Below the pieces are notes generated by a model. The model saw nothing but the letters and a program-made list of their open reading frames with translations. It ran no database searches and was not told the DNA's origin. The position numbers were made by a program, and so were the translations under genes. Positions 34,382 to 52,665 of a stretch of DNA of 64,000 nucleotides are shown here, one piece after another. Positions within the stretch are counted from its first letter, which is position 1; each line of letters begins with the position of its first letter. This stretch comes from Arthonia radiata (lineage: Eukaryota > Ascomycota > Arthoniomycetes > Arthoniales > Arthoniaceae): positions 2,239,453 to 2,303,452 of the forward strand of contig PSQN01000017.1 in NCBI GenBank assembly GCA_002989075.1, read 5' to 3'.

Positions 34382-35665
34382 TCACCGACTGGGTATGCGT
34401 CGTTTTCTCCATAGGTATACAGCGAGGAGTATGAATGAAACAGATCTTGCTGCTAAAGCTACGGCAACGCCTTTGCGCACGATGTCATAGTAGCCCTCCA
34501 GCATGGTGCCGATTGCGCTTGAGTTGAAGCCGTGCTGAGATGGAGCCTTCAGCCATGCGCGACTCCCAACGCTGTTGCCACTGATGCCAGCTTCAGGCTG
34601 ATTCTTGTCAAAACCTGCATCGTTGTCAGGGTTGATTGCATCCAAGCCGAGCTCAACGCCAGCTGGAGAGTGCAAGCGTCCAGACTGAACTTCGGCTTGT
34701 TTGCGTTGTCGGAACCGATATGACAGTGCCCAGATGATCGCACGCACATCTGGGGGCGAGAACGTCGGATACGTCCACAGCGTAAGCGCATTGTGAGGCG
34801 GTAGCAGATCCAGAAAGTCGGCGCAGACACCTAGAGTCAGACCCCATAAGAGTAGGGGAGGAGAGGGCGCTTTGGGATTACTTAAACCCTCTGGAATGAA
34901 GCCCGAGATGGACGAGCAATATTTCGAGTCGCTCGGTATCAATCGTATGGCGCTGAACAGCATCTGCCCCAGCATGAGCCGCAGAAACCATCTCTTGATC
35001 CCGAACTCTTGCTTCGCCAGTCGATTTGAAACGTCTTGATATTCATAGGTGCGGACGGAGGGCGAGAGTAATGCGCGCAATGGAACCCAGTGTGTCGAAG
35101 CTATCTCGGTCGGCTGCAAAGACTGGGAAGCGTTCGGATCGAGTAGCAGGAAGACGTAGGGACAGAGGACCATTAGCGGAACTTTGCCCCAGGAAGTTGT
35201 GACCACCCGTTGAGGAAGGTTCCCCACATGGAGAGCATGGCCTTCGCTTAAATCGAGTCCAACCTCTTCAGCTGTCTCTCTCACAGCAGTAGCCTGGTCA
35301 TCGGAATCATCGGCGTCCCGGCGCCCGCCTGGGAGGGCAACGTGCCCTTGCCAGCGGTCACCCTTTCGTGCAGCTCGCTTGATAAACAAGCCCTCTGGGT
35401 CTCCTCGACGGACCCAATCTTGGTCGAAGAATGCTTTCAAGGCTTCTTTTGCACGACTTGGATCGGCAAGATGGTCTGGTATGCCTCCATCAGCCCTATC
35501 CGGATAGTGAGGATTGATTCTGAGGATGAGGGCCACAGAGGCACGCTTATCGACTCCAGGAGGACAGTAGACAGTCGGAAATGGATGGGAGAGAAGGTTT
35601 TGAAGAACGCCATGAAGGCTGTCGGTGCTGCTACTACATCTCAAATGACTATCGTCAGGAGACAT
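34382..35665 (-). CDS. Nudix hydrolase with C-terminal membrane tail
   Basis: This single-exon frame of 427 residues is counted from the first ATG (MSPDDSHLRC). The frame stays open upstream to about 35791, so an upstream exon is possible. The Nudix box lies at about 112-138: LPGGRRDADD, then AVRETAEEVGLDL, which has the REx2EE core and a CoA-pyrophosphatase-like LPGG lead-in. The first acidic position reads Asp. The C-terminal third has a hydrophobic segment (LLLWGLTLGVCADFLDLL) and ends in a membrane helix followed by KRR (FILLAVYLWRKRR), as in tail-anchored proteins. Fungal CoA-type Nudix enzymes are usually soluble or peroxisomal, so the tail anchor is unusual. The substrate is unproven. 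Confidence 0.82.
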   Translation of the reverse strand: MSPDDSHLRCSSSTDSLHGVLQNLLSHPFPTVYCPPGVDKRASVALILRINPHYPDRADGGIPDHLADPSRAKEALKAFFDQDWVRRGDPEGLFIKRAARKGDRWQGHVALPGGRRDADDSDDQATAVRETAEEVGLDLSEGHALHVGNLPQRVVTTSWGKVPLMVLCPYVFLLLDPNASQSLQPTEIASTHWVPLRALLSPSVRTYEYQDVSNRLAKQEFGIKRWFLRLMLGQMLFSAIRLIPSDSKYCSSISGFIPEGLSNPKAPSPPLLLWGLTLGVCADFLDLLPPHNALTLWTYPTFSPPDVRAIIWALSYRFRQRKQAEVQSGRLHSPAGVELGLDAINPDNDAGFDKNQPEAGISGNSVGSRAWLKAPSQHGFNSSAIGTMLEGYYDIVRKGVAVALAARSVSFILLAVYLWRKRRIPSR

Positions 35666-36218
35666 GAGCCACGACCCGAGAATGGACCGCACAACGAAGG
35701 CTGTCTCTGCTGGAGACTCCTCATCAGATACAAAGGTTGCCTTTGTCAGCACAAGATCCCTCAGCCGGCCTGAACCAGACGATCGTAGCAATTAATCTCA
35801 TCTCTACTAGCTACACCATCGCGCATGCACTTGCCAATTCCATAATTCTACCCACGAGGTAGGTCAGCCGAAAGTCAACAATTCGCGGGTAAAAGTTCTG
35901 CCGAGATTCGCAACACCTGCAATGTAGTGGACGGACTATCTCGCCTGAGAAGGGTGCTGTAAGCATCCACATCTAGTGATATGCTGCGAGGCTACTTAGC
36001 TTCGCTTCAGCACCACAACTGCAACTAAGACGTATAAGACTATCAACGCCCCTGTTTGTTTTCGTCCTGGATTCGCAGACGAGAGACGCGGGCAAGAGCT
36101 GCCGACACTTAAAACCCCAGAGACTTTGGGCCAGGACTTAAAAGCACACCGTCCGCAGCTCTCAGTGATATGTTCCAGCCTCTTTGCAGTTCGTGCAAAG
36201 TGAACAATCGTTCTCAAT
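35666..36218. other. Divergent promoter, Nudix and DUF1479 genes
   Basis: About 550 nt lie between divergent starts. The first 126 nt may contain more 5' coding sequence of the Nudix gene. Nothing else is seen. Confidence 0.45.
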
Positions 36219-45119: not shown

Positions 45120-46043
45120 ATGGGCTCTCAAGAAGACCATTCAACTTGGCAGTATCTTCAAAATGCTCGCGAAACCTATCCAACCGACTTCACCATCATT
45201 TGTCCGTCGGGAAAAGTCGGCGTGCACAAAATGATTCTCGCACTTCGCAGCGAGTACTTCAGAACCCTATTCTCAAAGCCCGACCGATATGTCGAGAACG
45301 AGAAGAACCAACTTGATCTCCATGATGACAAAGATGTCGATGTTGGTTGCATGAAGGCACTTATCGAGATCCTCTACACGAACAAACTCCCGGCTCAGCC
45401 GATGAGCAAGCCCCCGGCCTCGCCGACGGTCAAAACCCCAGCTCGATCCACTATCAAACCCCCAGCTCAGCCCACTGCCAAAACCCTAGCCCAGCCGAGC
45501 CAAGCTCAAAGTCCCATGGAGTATCATCTCGGTATCTCTACGCTTGCCGATCGATTCCTTATCAAAGGCATCGACAACCTCATCGCGGATCTGATCTACG
45601 ATTGCTTCAACGACACCAACAGCGCCACAACACCGGGCAAGGGTCGCCAACTCAGGACCGACAAACCCTTCCTCGACGCCACGAAGGTCATCCTTGAGAA
45701 TGCAGGCAGAAACGACAGCCCGAAAGCAAAGACTAAGATCGCTGCGCTTTTCAACGATCATTTGCACTGCATCAAACGTGTGAAAGGTGTTCAAGAGTGG
45801 CTTCTCTCACAGCCGATCCTGACTGCAGAGTTGCTAAGCGAGCAAATGGAAGGACAAGAGAGGCTCATGTGTCCCCAATGCGGAGTTGTTCAGCGTGTAT
45901 CTCCGCGATCGCTTACGACAGGAACGAAGTATTATGGACGGGGATATCACTCAGGCGATGCGCAAGTCAAATGCACGCGATGCTCGTGCAGTACAGAAAA
46001 GATGAGTGCGTGGCGCAAAAAGTGGTTTTGCGAACCGGCTTGA
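45120..46043 (+). CDS. BTB/POZ protein with C-terminal Cys4 ribbon (cluster member A)
   Basis: This single-exon gene encodes 307 residues. The frame is open upstream, but the ATG at 45120 gives a compact BTB start (MGSQEDHSTWQYLQ). The BTB fold spans about 15-130: DFTIICPSGKVGVHKMILALRSEYFRTLF is the classic first half. A Pro/Lys/Thr-rich insert (about 95-140) with PPAxPTxK units interrupts it before STLADRFLIKGIDNLI. The C-terminal region has CPQCGVVQRV and, about 35 residues on, VKCTRCSC, a likely zinc ribbon. BTB proteins dimerise and often serve as cullin-3 adaptors; whether this one does is unknown. It is tandem with member B on the same strand. Confidence 0.82.
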   Translation: MGSQEDHSTWQYLQNARETYPTDFTIICPSGKVGVHKMILALRSEYFRTLFSKPDRYVENEKNQLDLHDDKDVDVGCMKALIEILYTNKLPAQPMSKPPASPTVKTPARSTIKPPAQPTAKTLAQPSQAQSPMEYHLGISTLADRFLIKGIDNLIADLIYDCFNDTNSATTPGKGRQLRTDKPFLDATKVILENAGRNDSPKAKTKIAALFNDHLHCIKRVKGVQEWLLSQPILTAELLSEQMEGQERLMCPQCGVVQRVSPRSLTTGTKYYGRGYHSGDAQVKCTRCSCSTEKMSAWRKKWFCEPA

Positions 46044-46331
46044 ATGGCTTGCACGCGTACGCCGACATGCACGTGGGTGGGGTGTAGGCACCATCGGCCT
46101 GGAGGTACAACGATTCCCTGTCTTCGCCAAGTCTTGGAATGATAGCAATAGCAGCTGCGTCGACTGTTTAGTTGCATAGATCATGGATCTAACCCTCACC
46201 TCAAGCCGGATTCTTCTGTCTTTCACCTAAGTAGCACGTGCCTTTCTCTAGCCTTCCCCTCGTAGCTCATTCTTGCTCTTCTCCTCCACTTCCACCTCAA
46301 GATTCCGGCTACAACAAAGCTCAAGCCCACA

Positions 46332-47405
46332 ATGGCGATAACACTGAAGCGCAAGCACTCCCTTCACTCCCAGATCACCTCTGCGTTATCCACAGGCAAA
46401 GCCTCAGACTTCGCGATCCACTCTCACGGCCACATCTTCCCCGTCCACAAATTCGTGCTGCGCCTTCGAAGCGAGTATTTCGAGAAGATCTTCAGCAATC
46501 CGCGCTTCACCGAAAATGACAGCAACCAGCTCGATCTGAACGATGAAGGGGTCGACCCGCGCGTGCTCAAGGCGCTGCTGCAGGCGCTCTACAGCGATGA
46601 CTACTGCCTCGATGCTGAGAAGCTGAAGGAAAGCAGCGCCGCCAAGGAGCAGAAGACCACGCAGGACTCAGATGGAGAAGGTGCTGCCGTCGAAGATTCT
46701 CAGGAGCAACAAGGCGACGAAGGATCACCCGATACCGACGAAGTGCTGAATGAGGAGTGGCCAAATCACAGCATCCTTGCCTTCCATGTCGGTGTCTCAG
46801 TACTCGCTGACCGCTTCCAAATCCCTGGCGTGGACAATCTGTGAGTTTTGCTGCTTGTATCGCAAGATAAGAGGGTGCTGCTGCTGACCCTGCGCAGAGT
46901 TGCTTCCAAGGTCTTCGCAGGCCTGAACGATTTCAACGCGACCTGGACCACAAACGAGAACCTCACGTTTGGCAAGCAGCACGAACAGCTGCGCACGGAT
47001 GCCGAGTTCCTCTCAGGATTGGCCATCTTGTTCACGAATGGAGGTCGCAACGATAGTAAGGAGGCGCAGCAGGCTATTGTGGACCTACTCTACGATCATA
47101 TGAACGACATCAAGGACGAAGAAGGCGTTGAGGAGTTTCTCTATGGCACGCCAGGTCTCGCAGCGGCACTAGTCAAAGAGCAGCTGCACGGGCCGAGGCG
47201 TATCAAATGTGCCACTTGCGGTAAGATCGAGCGGATCAGTTCCGCGACGTTGGGAGGCGAAGATATTGGCGGGGAGACTGGGAAAGCGAAGAAGATGGAT
47301 GCCTTCAAAGATGGGCATATGAAAGTTTGTGGGCGGTGTGGGGTGAGGGAGACTATGTTGCTGTGGATCCGGGCCTGGGATGGAACTTATGCGGTGCGTC
47401 ACTAG
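46332..47405 (+). CDS. BTB/POZ protein with C-terminal Cys4 ribbon (cluster member B)
   Basis: Exons 46332-46840 and 46898-47405 encode 338 residues; the intron splits a Leu codon after PGVDNL. BTB marks are SDFAIHSHGHIFPVHKFVL and LRSEYFEKIFSNPRF. An acidic insert of about 50 residues (Glu/Asp/Gln-rich) sits where member A has its Pro-rich insert. Both then share VSVLADRFQIPGVDNL-type sequence and FTNGGRNDSKEAQQAI (compare A: NAGRNDSPKAKTKI). CATCGKIERI and CGRCGVRET give the same paired-cysteine C terminus as A. A and B are clearly paralogues, though only B has the intron. Confidence 0.85.
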
Positions 47406-47576
47406 CAGCTGCACATGGAGTAATAGCGTTGAGGTTGGGGCAGTAGTGCTCCAGCGCCCTGACGGAGTGAAAATTGAGGTGTCTGAGGATAGCATGACCA
47501 TAGTGTGGCCGCTCGCCAACGAAAATGTTGTGTGTCATTCACCGAATGAGCCCTTAAATGAGCGACCAAGTCATCA

Positions 47577-48450
47577 TTAGACTGCGTTCCGAAGCTTTTG
47601 CTTCAAATCGAGATTACTACCGCAACCTGGACATCGCACCTTTGCGTTGCTATCATTCCATCGCCATGCGACACTCTTCCCGTCCATTTCTTTCACCGTG
47701 AAGCGGAATTCGGCTCCGCAATCGTGGCTGCACTTGAAATACACAAAGTTGTCGCAATGAGGAGCCATGTCTTTGATGAAAGCTAGAAGGAGCGCTGGAC
47801 AGCTCTTCAGCACTTCGTCGCTTGCTGCGTTCTGAACCATGTACGCCATGCACGATGCGAATTTGCGGGCAAGCCGCTGGACTGCTTCCTGGTCCTGGAA
47901 GTTCTTGCATATGTCGACGAGCAGAGTCATGCACTCATCTCGCTCGATACTATGGCCGTTGTGGAGGTCAATTCGCTCTAAGTGGCTGGCGCAGACATGG
48001 TCCAGCCCATGGATCAGGAAGCGTTTTGCCAGAATCATGACAGCGAGTTCCCTTTCGAAGTAAGGAATGGCCTCTTCTTCAGAGAGCGTGTCGTAGTCGT
48101 CTGTGTAGATGCCCAGAAGCAGGTCCCTCAAAGCTTCAGCGTCGACGTCATCAAGGTTGGCAAAACGGTCTTTGCTCTCCTGGAAACCGTCAGCTGTTAG
48201 GTCAGAGCAGTGTATTTGGTATTCCAATACCTTGAAAGGGCCGTTCATAAGACCTCGAAAATATCCGCTCCGAGTGCTGAGAATGAGACTGTGCACGTGG
48301 AATGTTTCGTCTGCGCAGACGAGTTTGAAGTCTGATGACTTCGGGTCATTGAAGATGCTTGATACATGAGCGAGCGCATCGAAAGAGGAGCTATGGTCAG
48401 CGCGCCTACCTTTTCATAGCCTCGTTGAGCGTGGCAATTGCTCGTGCCAT
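47577..48450 (-). CDS. BTB/POZ protein with C-terminal Cys4 ribbon (cluster member C)
   Basis: Exons 48450-48410, 48357-48231 and 48179-47577 encode 256 residues; exon lengths are 41, 127 and 603 nt. The small first exon and both introns are supported by exact correspondence with member D. The BTB core reads SDFKLVCADETFHVHSLIL, STRSGYFRGLMNGPFK, then DVDAEALRDLLLGIYTDDYD and AKRFLIHGLDHV. The C terminus holds CSHDCGAEFRF and VRCPGCGSNLDL, a paired-Cys ribbon framing a Trp-rich hairpin (VAWRWND). Transcribed toward member B, whose end is 171 nt away. Confidence 0.83.
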
Positions 48451-48813
48451 CTTCCAGTAGACGAATGCAGATGAGGAGGAGAATGACTGGAGTGATTGTA
48501 TTGGAGTATGTGTGCAAAAACGAAGTTGTAGGCAAGGAGAAGTGAGGCCATTGATAGCCAATATTAGATCCTCACCTCATGAGAGGCTTGGCAGTCGCAG
48601 TTATCATCACCTTTCCGATTATGGCTTGTCCAAGCGCTCAATCAAATTACATCATTGGCCAGTGAGACCAGTTTGGGCTCTTCAATAGCAGGTAGTCGTT
48701 ATCATTATTGTCTCGGCATGCCCTATCGAGTAGATGCGAACACTTCAGCATATCGAATCGCGAGATCAACCATGCCACCAGCCCTAAGCGAGGCTCTTAC
48801 TCTGCTGATGCCG
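48451..48813. other. Intergenic between BTB members C and D
   Basis: This is the promoter of C and the 3' flank of D. No other feature is seen. Confidence 0.5.
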
Positions 48814-49705
48814 CTAGGCCGCTCGCTTCTTGTTGGCTTTTCTCAACTCGGATCCAAGTTTCCACTTGTGGTTGCAGCCAGGACACTTCAACTCGTTAGT
48901 ATTCTTCCAGCGCCACTTCCCATCCTCGATCCGCAGCGTGAACCACGACTCGCTGCCACACTCAGCATTTGGGCATTTGAGATGCAACGTCTGCTTTGAC
49001 GAAGGAGCTCGTTGATATAGAGCCATCCAGAGAAGCTCTGGGCACCTGCGCAGCTCGCGGAAGCTGCAAAGCTCCATGAAACTCGGTGCAAGGTCCGTGA
49101 AGCACTTTGCCACTCTCAACTTGAGATCATGATCGACGAGCGTCTCACTGATGCGGAGGATCGCCAGCAACGAAATTTTGAGATTAACGTCCTTGAACAG
49201 CAGCTGTGAACCAAGATTCTCGAGGTTCTGAACACAAGCTTCGTCAAGGCCAGTGACAAGGAAGCGCCGGGTGAGCTGCAGGACCTGAGCTTCATGCAGG
49301 ACGCGCTGGTGTGGCGAGCCCATTCGGTTCGAGTCGTAGCCTCCGCTGTAGATACCAAGTAGCAAAGAACGCATAACCTCAGAGTTTATATCGTCAATGG
49401 TAACCATGTTTTCCTGCGCCTCCTACTCGCAACATCGTTAGCAGCGAAGCGACACACGGGCTAATCGAAAAACTCCAACGTACTTGGAAGCCACTGTTGA
49501 TGAGCGCCTTGAAATATTGGCTGCGTGTGTTGAGGATCAAGGTATGCACATAAAAGACAACTCCTTCGCAGTGGACTTGGAAGTCGGCAGTAGCGGCATC
49601 GTTGAAAAGACTGCATAGCCAGGTCAGCTCTGTGCAGATGGGTCTTTTGCTCGTCAGGCTATACCTTTTAACGGCGTTGCTGAGATAGCTCAAGGCGTCG
49701 GTCAT
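48814..49705 (-). CDS. BTB/POZ protein with C-terminal Cys4 ribbon (cluster member D)
   Basis: Exons 49705-49665, 49610-49484 and 49413-48814 encode 255 residues; exon lengths are 41, 127 and 600 nt, matching member C exon for exon. The first exon encodes 13 codons plus two bases in both genes. An in-frame ATG 123 nt upstream exists but has no counterpart in C. BTB core: ADFQVHCEGVVFYVHTLIL, NTRSQYFKALINSGFQ, DDINSEVMRSLLLGIYSGGYD, LTRRFLVTGLDEA. The C terminus has CPNAECGSESWFTL, a GKWRWKN turn, and LKCPGCNHKWKLG. Tandem duplication with C is the simplest origin. Confidence 0.85.
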
Positions 49706-49978
49706 GTTTGAGTGCGCCTCTGCTGATATGTGCTGCTGGAACGACACTTGCTGGCGAAGGGCTCCTGACTGAGCTGCTGGGGTTCTTTTGCTCGGAAGGT
49801 GAGCAAGCGAAGTCAAAGCATAGGTCATCAGTCGTTTGACACGGTATGATTATGAAGTTCCTTCAGGTTGCATGTGGGACTTGCTATCTTCACCTTGAAT
49901 GACGCTTGTGAGTGCTGAATCTGCAGGTACGACAATTACTGCTTTTTGCCTGTTGACAACCGAGGCGTGTCACGGCTC

Positions 49979-50612
49979 CTACTCCTCCTCATACCTATCG
50001 AAGCTCTCTTGATGTTTTTCACTCTCACATCCGAGTTCCCAAACGTGATAGCACCCAGGACACTTTAGCTCGTGCTCAGTACGCCAGGTCCAAGTGCGAT
50101 TCTCTCCTCTCAGTGTTGCCCAGACCTCGCATCCGCAGCCTGTTCCCGGACAGCGTTGGTCACGACTCGCGATGGGTCGGGAAATCGTTGTTTGAGCATG
50201 AATATCATTAGACCTGGGCATGCAGCCAAAACCTTTTCGTTTGAGGCGTCCTGCATGAAGCGAGGCGGGAAATCTTTCAGCCACGAAGCCAACGTCTCCC
50301 ACGCGGAGTGATTTTGCAGGCTCTGGTATACGGCGACGATGTGTTGTAGACGCTCCAATCTTGGTTTTTCGGACATCGAAACCTAGTCTTTGATGCCTTC
50401 GACGCGTTTGACGAGAGTGTTATCCACACCCACAACAAGGGATCGCCGTGTGAGCATGGCATTCTCCTGCTCATTAGATCGTCCTTCTCATCATCGCTTG
50501 CCAGATCGAAGTCGTCCGTGCACAGATACTGTAAGAGGGCTAGCAGTGCTGTCGGGTTGGCATCGGGAATGGTGACGGCCATTTTCTCAGCCTCATGAAA
50601 GCCCCCCGCATT
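49979..50612 (-). pseudogene. Decayed BTB paralogue (cluster member E), 5'-truncated
   Basis: Pieces aligned to member D appear in order but in changing frames. They are NAGGFHEAEKMAVTIP and LLALLQYLCTDDFD; LTRRSLVVGVDNTLVKRVEGI; then CPGLMIFMLKQRFPDPSR; and finally CPGTGCGCEVWATL with LKCPGCYHVWELG. At least two frame shifts (near 50455 and 50160) and one in-frame TAG (near 50383) separate them. The first half of the BTB domain and the start codon are missing: homology stops at about 50612, against the URA4 stop codon at 50617-50619. It is a host-gene relic, third in a tandem C-D-E series on the minus strand. A short spliced product cannot be fully excluded. Confidence 0.72.
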
Positions 50613-50616
50613 AAGG

Positions 50617-51756
50617 TCATTTCATCCATTCGATGCTCCACGTCTCTTTGCCACTTCTAAAGTTCACCACCTCGACACTTTCGCCAATACCCTTCACGCA
50701 CTCTTCGATAATATTCCGTTTGCTCTTCACGACAACATAATCTTTTTGACTTTCAGTTATCTTGTAGAAGCGATTCCCTCTCGCACTCAGGAACTCCCGC
50801 AACGCCTCTTCAGTCACTGCTTCTGGCGCAAACCACTTATTGATGACTCCATCTTCAAGGGCTGAAAAGACGAGCTGTGTTGCATAAGCTTGAGTGAAAC
50901 AACCGGCAGCAGCCTTCTTGTGAGGGCTGGCGACCTTAGCATCTCTGGGATGCGGTGCGCTATCACTACCGAAGAAGAACTTGCTGCTTGGGTCGATAAT
51001 CTCTCGTTGCAGCGCGACTCGATCTGAAGGCATCTTTGCAGTAGGCTTGCAAAATGCCCAACCGTCACCAATGACGTCGTCAACGGTCAGGAAAAGGTGA
51101 TGAGCCGTGATTGTCCCCGCAACAGTCGGACCACACTTGCGGACTGCCTCCAGTGCGGCTTGAGTACTGGCATGCTCAAGCACGATCCGCAAGCGTGGGA
51201 AGTCCTTGTGAAGCTTGCGCAGCGTAGGAAGAAACGCATGTTCAGCGTTCAAAACCGTCACAGCGCCAGGGTTTGCCGGATCCGTGCTGCTCTGCTCCAC
51301 ATACTCTGGCCCCGAGTCGCATGTACATCCGACCTCGCCATGTAGATTAAGCACCATGTCCACTTCCTGCATCTTCGAGATGACAGGATAGAACGGCTCC
51401 AGATCCACGACGCCTGCATCCGAGTTGGTCGTCACGCCTGCTGGATAGATCTTGACGCCAGCGATACCAGCTTTCTTTGCTTCGACAATCATCTCGGGTG
51501 TGATGCTAGGGTGCATATACAGGGTCATGAGATAGTTGACAGATGGGTCGATGGCGCGAAGCTCGTCGCGGTAAGATATTGCCTGCTGCACGGTCGTGAT
51601 AGGAGGCGTCAAATTTGGCATCACATACACAGTAGACACGCCACCGCGCCGTATAGTCGGTACGACAGTCCGCATGAGGTCGCCAGAGCGCAAATGGACG
51701 TGGAAATCGGACGTAGGCGGTAATTGTATACGGCTGAAAGGGAGTGAGGACGACAT
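50617..51756 (-). CDS. URA4: Dihydroorotase
   Basis: This single exon encodes 379 residues from MSSSLPFSRIQLP. It catalyses cyclisation of N-carbamoyl-aspartate to dihydroorotate in pyrimidine synthesis. The metal motif DFHVHLR follows the start closely, as in fungal and bacterial class II enzymes. Then come GVKIYPAGVTTNSDAG (with the lysine that is usually carboxylated), NLHGEV, LEHAST and TAHHLFLTVDD, and the catalytic Asp in FFFGSDSAPH. The frame is open upstream, and an ATG at 51897 would add 47 residues rich in Arg and Ser; other family members start at MSSSL-like positions, so I chose the shorter form. Its 3' end abuts the BTB relic. Confidence 0.95.
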   Translation of the reverse strand: MSSSLPFSRIQLPPTSDFHVHLRSGDLMRTVVPTIRRGGVSTVYVMPNLTPPITTVQQAISYRDELRAIDPSVNYLMTLYMHPSITPEMIVEAKKAGIAGVKIYPAGVTTNSDAGVVDLEPFYPVISKMQEVDMVLNLHGEVGCTCDSGPEYVEQSSTDPANPGAVTVLNAEHAFLPTLRKLHKDFPRLRIVLEHASTQAALEAVRKCGPTVAGTITAHHLFLTVDDVIGDGWAFCKPTAKMPSDRVALQREIIDPSSKFFFGSDSAPHPRDAKVASPHKKAAAGCFTQAYATQLVFSALEDGVINKWFAPEAVTEEALREFLSARGNRFYKITESQKDYVVVKSKRNIIEECVKGIGESVEVVNFRSGKETWSIEWMK

Positions 51757-52665
51757 TCTGACAACTGGCAGTCGGTGAGGCGTCTTTGCATGGCGAGACT
51801 GCAGAACACCCTTGACGATTGATGGGATGCGCCACGATGCTCTTCTGGCAAGTGACACTTGGGCCTGGTGCACGTGGGATAACACGAAGGCGCACATATC
51901 AGTCCCGTGAAAAGAGACGACATTACCCAGCTTGAAGAAGGCCAATTGGACACATCACGACATGGACGGAGTGAGAATAATGCCGACCCTATTTCGTGCG
52001 GAGAAGGGTGTTTTTCGAGTAGACATATTATCGAGGACGCGGTTAAGAAATGGCATTCACTGCGTTGGTGCGTTGGTAGTAGAACCGACTAGCCAGGCAC
52101 GCCAGGGGCAGGATTTGTCTAGTTTGGCACGCCTAACCCAGATAAGCCTAGCTACGAGATCTGCTATCTAGTATCGTGGCACCACGGCTAAACAAGAGAG
52201 AAGAAAGAATCATCCCTTCAGTGTCTATTGGCTTAATTGTACTGACGCAAGTAAAGCGTTGCGAAGATAAGGATGATCATCGTAGACGTCTGTACTCGGC
52301 TGGCAACAAAGCCATGGGCGCCGGAAGCGGACATGACCCTGCTGGGTTGTCGCCGCATGCGACCTGCTCTTCTTGCAAGAGAGTACCTGATGGTTCGAGG
52401 CAGAGCTTACCAGTGAACTAAAATGGGGCGTATAGGTACATGGCTCATTGATTCAACCTTTGAGGTGTGCACGCCGGATGCGGCCCATCATCAGCCCCTT
52501 TGTCCTCGAAAATGCCCTTTTGTTCCCTTGACTACCTGGCAGCCCAGCTGATGAATCGGTACCCTGAACTCATCGTGAAAACGGTGCTTCACTGGGACCT
52601 ACACTCTACGCCTCATGTTGCTTCCACAAGCCTAGACATTTCAGGGTCCAGCAGGCCATTCGAAG
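51757..52665. other. Divergent promoter, URA4 and kinase
   Basis: This is 909 nt. Around 52085-52175 there are several CTAG sites and two copies of GGCACGCC-like sequence, but no clear array. No gene is supported. Confidence 0.4.

Follow-up and report, generated by a model that had tools for sequence, protein, structure and literature searches.

The 64,000-nucleotide stretch of the Arthonia radiata genome analyzed here (the window; C1:2239453-2303452; the genome has 16 contigs and 33.5 Mb) contains, at positions 45120-50621, four intact genes for BTB proteins (A-D) and one decayed copy (E). A and B lie on the plus strand and C, D and E on the minus strand, as the initial annotation had proposed for five BTB loci. 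All five members have two C-terminal cysteine pairs (CxxC-type knuckles), here referred to as the ribbon, a feature of the initial annotation that holds throughout. The splice sites of A-D were predicted from the sequence, and the resulting models, in window positions, are the following.

Gene A, 45120-46043, plus strand: one exon, 307 amino acids; BTB domain, P/A/K/T-rich insert, helical middle region and ribbon CPQC-x30-CTRC.
Gene B, 46332-46840 and 46898-47405, plus strand: two exons, 338 amino acids; BTB domain, acidic insert, helical middle region and ribbon CATC-x36-CGRC.
Gene C, exons 48450-48410, 48357-48231 and 48179-47577, minus strand: exon lengths of 41/127/603 nucleotides, 256 amino acids; BTB domain, helical middle region and ribbon CSHDC-x28-CPGC.
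Gene D, exons 49705-49665, 49610-49484 and 49422-48814, minus strand: exon lengths of 41/127/609 nucleotides, 258 amino acids; BTB domain, helical middle region and ribbon CPNAEC-x24-CPGC.
Pseudogene E, about 49979-50621, minus strand: second half of a BTB domain, helical middle region and ribbon, spread over three reading frames and interrupted by stops.

The exon lengths given earlier for C are retained, whereas the third exon of D measures 609 nucleotides and not 600. No first exons were found for E, which is without the first half of the BTB domain; because its remaining parts sit in three frames separated by stops and its BTB core is incomplete, it is regarded as decayed, in agreement with the initial annotation. 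Next to E lies a dihydroorotase gene (50617-51954; match in the PDB with an E value of 1e-78), with its 3' end towards the pseudogene. As had been noted before, A and B have inserts of different composition. The insert of A (45372-45500) consists of imperfect eight-residue P/A/K/T repeats, corresponding to 24-nucleotide direct repeats, a pattern typical of growth by replication slippage, and the insert of B is acidic.

The BTB family PF00651 was found above the Pfam cut-off in A (E 3e-11), B (E 6e-14) and C (E 5.9e-15). In D, exon 3 scanned alone reached 18 of the required 20.5 bits, just under the cut-off, and exon 2 (C1:2288942-2289061) scored 24.9 bits in a genome search with the Pfam BTB profile. 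A profile built from A-D has SPOP as its best match in the PDB (E 2.3e-14), covering profile positions 9-187 of 256 (179/256) and so running on beyond the BTB domain; the Pfam BACK family had no match in the scanned proteins of the window. The four proteins also have the phi-x-E motif (YVE in A, FTE in B, FKE in C and FQE in D), and its conserved glutamate is aligned with that of SPOP in the A-D profile. Of 28 family rows, 24 have this motif 20-24 residues past a [VA]H step; a script identified it in 21 of them and inspection by eye in B, L010 and L018. The remaining four rows lack the stretch or are interrupted where they had been joined by hand. The motif crosses an exon join in C, D and some other members. 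From these matches, A-D are predicted to have a BTB domain followed by 3-box/BACK-like helices. The BTB core attributed to all members is common to A-D and incomplete in E, and the middle region resembles that of helical adaptors.

The cysteine pairs of the ribbon are separated by 30 residues in A, 36 in B, 28 in C and 24 in D, so that the spacing of 30-40 residues reported initially applies to A and B and is a little too long for C and D. Across the family, the loop between the pairs is very variable in length (about 14-44 residues) and likewise in sequence, and the ribbon region of the paralogues is only about 12-28% identical; the four cysteines stay invariant in all 15 rows of an alignment whose rows were selected for having them. 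The Pfam family Zn_ribbon_4 is a weak best match in 4 of the 15 rows (best E 0.0023), and the zinc ribbons of RNA polymerase subunit P and eS27 in the PDB were matched weakly as well (E about 0.002), and the C-terminal profile also matched the TFIIE-alpha ribbon. The nearest approach to a Pfam cut-off was NMD3 in L015 (23.0 of 24.9 bits), and Zn_ribbon_4 in L020a reached 16.5 of 30.3 bits. No family other than BTB passed the curated Pfam cut-offs in the five window pieces and six other proteins scanned, and no NCBIfam cut-off was reached by the four members scanned. Because all matches fall below the cut-offs, the ribbon is assigned here to no named ribbon family of the libraries scanned, in agreement with the initial annotation, which could put no name to the architecture. 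The weak matches are to generic C4 zinc ribbons, and these, together with the four cysteines, suggest that the ribbon would bind zinc.

The ribbon is not restricted to the window. The Pfam BTB profile gave 43 matches in the genome at an E value of 0.001 (matches and not genes, and hence a lower bound), and reading the frames around them revealed a C-terminal four-cysteine ribbon at 22 loci, 17 of them outside the window:

Contig C1, in the window: A, B, C, D and E.
Contig C2: L015, L009a, L009b, four in L022 and three in L012.
Contig C4: two in L028.
Contig C11: L010.
Contig C12: L020a and L042.
Contig C15: L029a and L029b.

For L012e and one gene of L022, the ribbon lies in a separate frame taken as an exon, and at L028:3117-3566 the middle region and the ribbon are present and the BTB part was not located. 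Thirteen of the 17 loci outside the window sit in tandem islands on C2 (two islands), C12 and C15. A local invention of the ribbon, considered as a candidate explanation, was rejected given these 17 loci.

Other BTB genes have a damaged ribbon or none. L014 and L016 keep one cysteine pair, and in L020b the first pair is short of one cysteine (CPKF), this gene standing in the middle of three tandem A/B-like ones. In L033:1300-1800, an in-frame TAG is located between the cysteine pairs of the ribbon of a BTB gene, which could be due to an intron or to decay. The ribbon is missing from L012b, L012c, L029c, L011, L027 and L018. The three tandem A/B-like genes are those of L020 and L042 (C12:128400-132750). 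The L012 region (C2:1803500-1813400) comprises five tandem BTB genes, among which L012b and L012c stop just short of where the ribbon would start, and two more dense BTB groups with interrupted frames are found in the partly examined region C15:1772000-1825000. Within the window, ordinary neighbors of genes A-E include a Gig2-like protein (PF07350; 36521-37912, plus strand) and a NUDIX-domain protein (34385-35791, minus strand).

The pairing of BTB domain and ribbon was compared with chance expectation. Of the 39 Pfam BTB hits outside the window, 12 have a four-cysteine motif close to the end of an open frame in the 1000 bases downstream. On the antisense strand of these stretches, the count is 1 of 39 (Fisher P 0.0015), and upstream it is 6 of 39 (P 0.18). 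Four of the six upstream motifs are the ribbon of an adjacent BTB or ribbon gene, and one of the 12 downstream motifs (L031) reads as chance. Among open frames of at least 150 codons, the ribbon was found in 14 of 41 BTB-related frames versus 4 of 173 others, or in 16 of 43 versus 2 of 171 (P 6e-11) once two frames were reassigned to the family by reading, counts that are biased upwards because they include four window frames and were drawn with a ribbon-containing profile. The loosest test, which accepted any motif within 1400 bases (18 versus 13 of 43), shows nothing alone. The coupling of a BTB domain to a C-terminal four-cysteine ribbon, put forward initially as an architecture, is confirmed.

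A tree of 28 BTB rows, with a midpoint root, long branches and several hand-joined rows, has nine rows on one side (support 99/94). Within these, C and D form a pair (100/98) separate from a seven-row group that includes A, B and genes on C12 and C2 (98/95), and the position of A and B as nearest sisters is weakly supported (82/40). In single-protein searches, A found as its best other matches L020a with 107 bits and B with 71 and 64 bits (two exons), and C only at an E value of 0.019, and C found D as the best match, followed by genes on C11 and C15. The "local expansion" of the initial annotation is not sustained, since 17 of the 22 ribbon loci are elsewhere and A and B group with C12 and C2 genes, apart from C and D. 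The exon lengths of C and D are not a signature of this pair. Ten other BTB genes were tested, and eight of them have a candidate first-intron acceptor where C and D have theirs, 61 bases ahead of the V-H codon; candidate sites in these eight would give first exons of 38-47 nucleotides in seven genes and of 32 or 59 nucleotides in L033, and a candidate GT donor leads to a 127-nucleotide second exon in five (L029a-c, L027 and L022d). The script that scored these sites missed D, whose exon structure comes from its separate gene model. Because the acceptor and the 127-nucleotide exon recur on other contigs, the C/D exon lengths were rejected as a mark of recent duplication, and the pattern is read as an old gene structure shared across contigs.

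A and B share 38% identity, and C and D share 35%. The proportions of differing synonymous sites (pS) are saturated, with 0.75 for A-B and 0.81 for C-D, and those of nonsynonymous sites (pN) are lower, with 0.45 and 0.44, respectively. A ratio of nonsynonymous to synonymous rates (dN/dS) for C versus D, which the initial annotation had called for, is not given because of this saturation (pS 0.81), and the "rapid local turnover" postulated there is not shown. The neighboring A-D are best described as old or fast-evolving paralogues, judging from their divergence. As for the ribbon itself, 18 rows of the tree have it and in 10 it is missing or broken, a distribution that needs 8 changes, about as many as shuffled labels give (mean 8.4). 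Because ribbons occur at the same position on both sides of the root, this is read here as an ancestral ribbon with repeated loss, with repeated gain as a possible alternative. A C-terminal profile built without the window rows finds B (E 4.5e-10), A (E 3.3e-8) and C (E 4.1e-5).

Several known BTB systems resemble A-D in part. In SPOP, an N-terminal MATH domain takes the substrates. SPOP is the closest solved structure and, like A-D, has a BTB domain followed by 3-box/BACK-like helices with phi-x-E; unlike SPOP, A-D have no MATH match in the Pfam scan; instead, they end in the four-cysteine ribbon. The BTB-BACK-Kelch proteins KLHL3, KEAP1 and KBTBD2, which were also matched in the PDB, share the BTB domain, the helices and phi-x-E, but A-D are much shorter, with no Kelch repeats found in the Pfam scan and with a terminal ribbon. 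The ZBTB factors have an N-terminal BTB domain and a C-terminal zinc-binding module, as predicted for A-D, which differ in having a single four-cysteine ribbon and no C2H2 finger family above the Pfam cut-off in the proteins scanned. Among fungal BTB proteins, BTB1 of Neurospora crassa (NCU04838) strongly bound Cul3, according to a study in which eight BTB proteins were predicted and tested (PMC2996332). Many BTB proteins per genome have been reported for Ochroconis mirabilis (PMC4738786) and Cryomyces antarcticus (PMC11412873), and the excerpts of these papers mention no ribbon or architecture. In the excerpts of other papers, BTB stands for beta-tubulin and is irrelevant (PMC4227064) or is named merely in passing (PMC4835772, PMC3828140). 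No BTB-zinc ribbon protein from fungi is described in the open-licence papers searched, and no relatives were found in viral contigs and prokaryote genome contigs, non-fungal collections that are silent on other fungi.

Here it is proposed that A-D belong to a large and old fungal BTB family, with a BTB domain, SPOP-like helices and a C4 ribbon, whose members act as Cullin-3 adaptors with a structural or substrate-binding tail, a proposal to which we give a probability of about 55%. This role is the best supported because of the SPOP match, the phi-x-E motif, the presence of a Cullin-3 gene and the Cul3 binding of N. crassa BTB1. The genome encodes a Cullin-3: the first 352 residues of one of its cullin genes match human Cullin-3 best (E 1.4e-29, versus 8e-14 for Cullin-4). 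In KLHL3, phi-x-E contacts Cul3, and the E85A substitution is reported to have abolished measurable binding (PMC3616122). In the proposed mechanism, the BTB domain would dimerize and, with the helices behind it, dock on the N-terminal domain of Cullin-3. The ribbon, in which one zinc ion presumably bridges the two cysteine pairs, would cap the helices and present its variable loop of about 14-44 residues, which may aid substrate binding; the bound substrate would then be ubiquitylated, the adaptors thus picking proteins for destruction.

A number of observations weigh against this assignment. When the C-terminal profile is compared with the PDB, C2H2 finger arrays match best (E to 1.9e-14), which we read as an effect of repeated CPxCG on the scores. 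Given its scatter over the tree, the ribbon is either frequently lost or dispensable. The profile without window rows misses D (unlisted to an E value of 0.78). A profile restricted to the far islands finds B and C at E values of just 0.05-0.06 and does not find A or D; a common origin of the window ribbons with those of the far islands is therefore based on the BTB tree, the introns and the position, and not on ribbon sequence. Additionally, phi-x-E is common in BTB proteins and is not proof of Cullin-3 binding, and just one of the eight N. crassa BTB proteins is reported as a strong Cul3 binder in the part of that study available (PMC2996332).

Among the alternatives, the one with the most weight, although still improbable, is that the ribbon is a mere cap stabilizing the fold of the last helices, with substrates recruited through the inserts or the helical region. 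This would explain why the ribbon is repeatedly lost or damaged in relatives that otherwise look intact (L012b, L012c, L014, L016 and L020b), but it sits uneasily with four cysteines kept invariant among paralogues so divergent in that region and with the retention of the ribbon by most members examined. Somewhat less probable is a function as nuclear regulators, in which the BTB domain dimerizes and recruits partners and the ribbon serves to bind DNA or RNA, in the manner of a ZBTB factor but with a C4 ribbon. RNA polymerase subunit and TFIIE-alpha ribbons and the C2H2 arrays of ZBTB proteins among the C-terminal profile matches would agree with it; however, the A-D profile fits SPOP better than any ZBTB chain and extends past the BTB domain, phi-x-E is kept, and a single short ribbon with a loop so variable in length and sequence is unlikely to be a sequence-specific DNA reader.

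The least probable of the explanations considered is a fast, recent and lineage-specific arms-race family, for example of adaptors related to self/non-self recognition or to effectors. The tandem islands on C1, C2 (twice), C12 and C15, the pseudogene E, the differing inserts of A and B and the many broken ribbons are features that such a family could have, but the low A-B and C-D identities with saturated synonymous sites and pN below pS speak for a longer history, as does an exon structure common to several contigs. A bolder extension of the Cullin-3 adaptor proposal, offered here as speculation with low odds, is that the ribbon with its freely changing loop may be the recognition surface of a large and unrecognized fungal class of Cullin-3 receptors, which would multiply in tandem islands, with repeated loss or breakage, and leave dozens of differing receptors per genome, possibly tagging foreign or selfish proteins.

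This family of BTB adaptor-like proteins, whose terminal ribbon has no name, looks real, and it is older and broader than the initial annotation supposed. Pfam annotates these proteins solely as "BTB". If the ribbon is a zinc-binding substrate module, a sizeable share of the BTB proteins of this genome would be united by one architecture and by a role as receptors of ubiquitin ligases that can be tested, and the terminal ribbon would join MATH and Kelch as substrate modules of Cullin-3 ligases.

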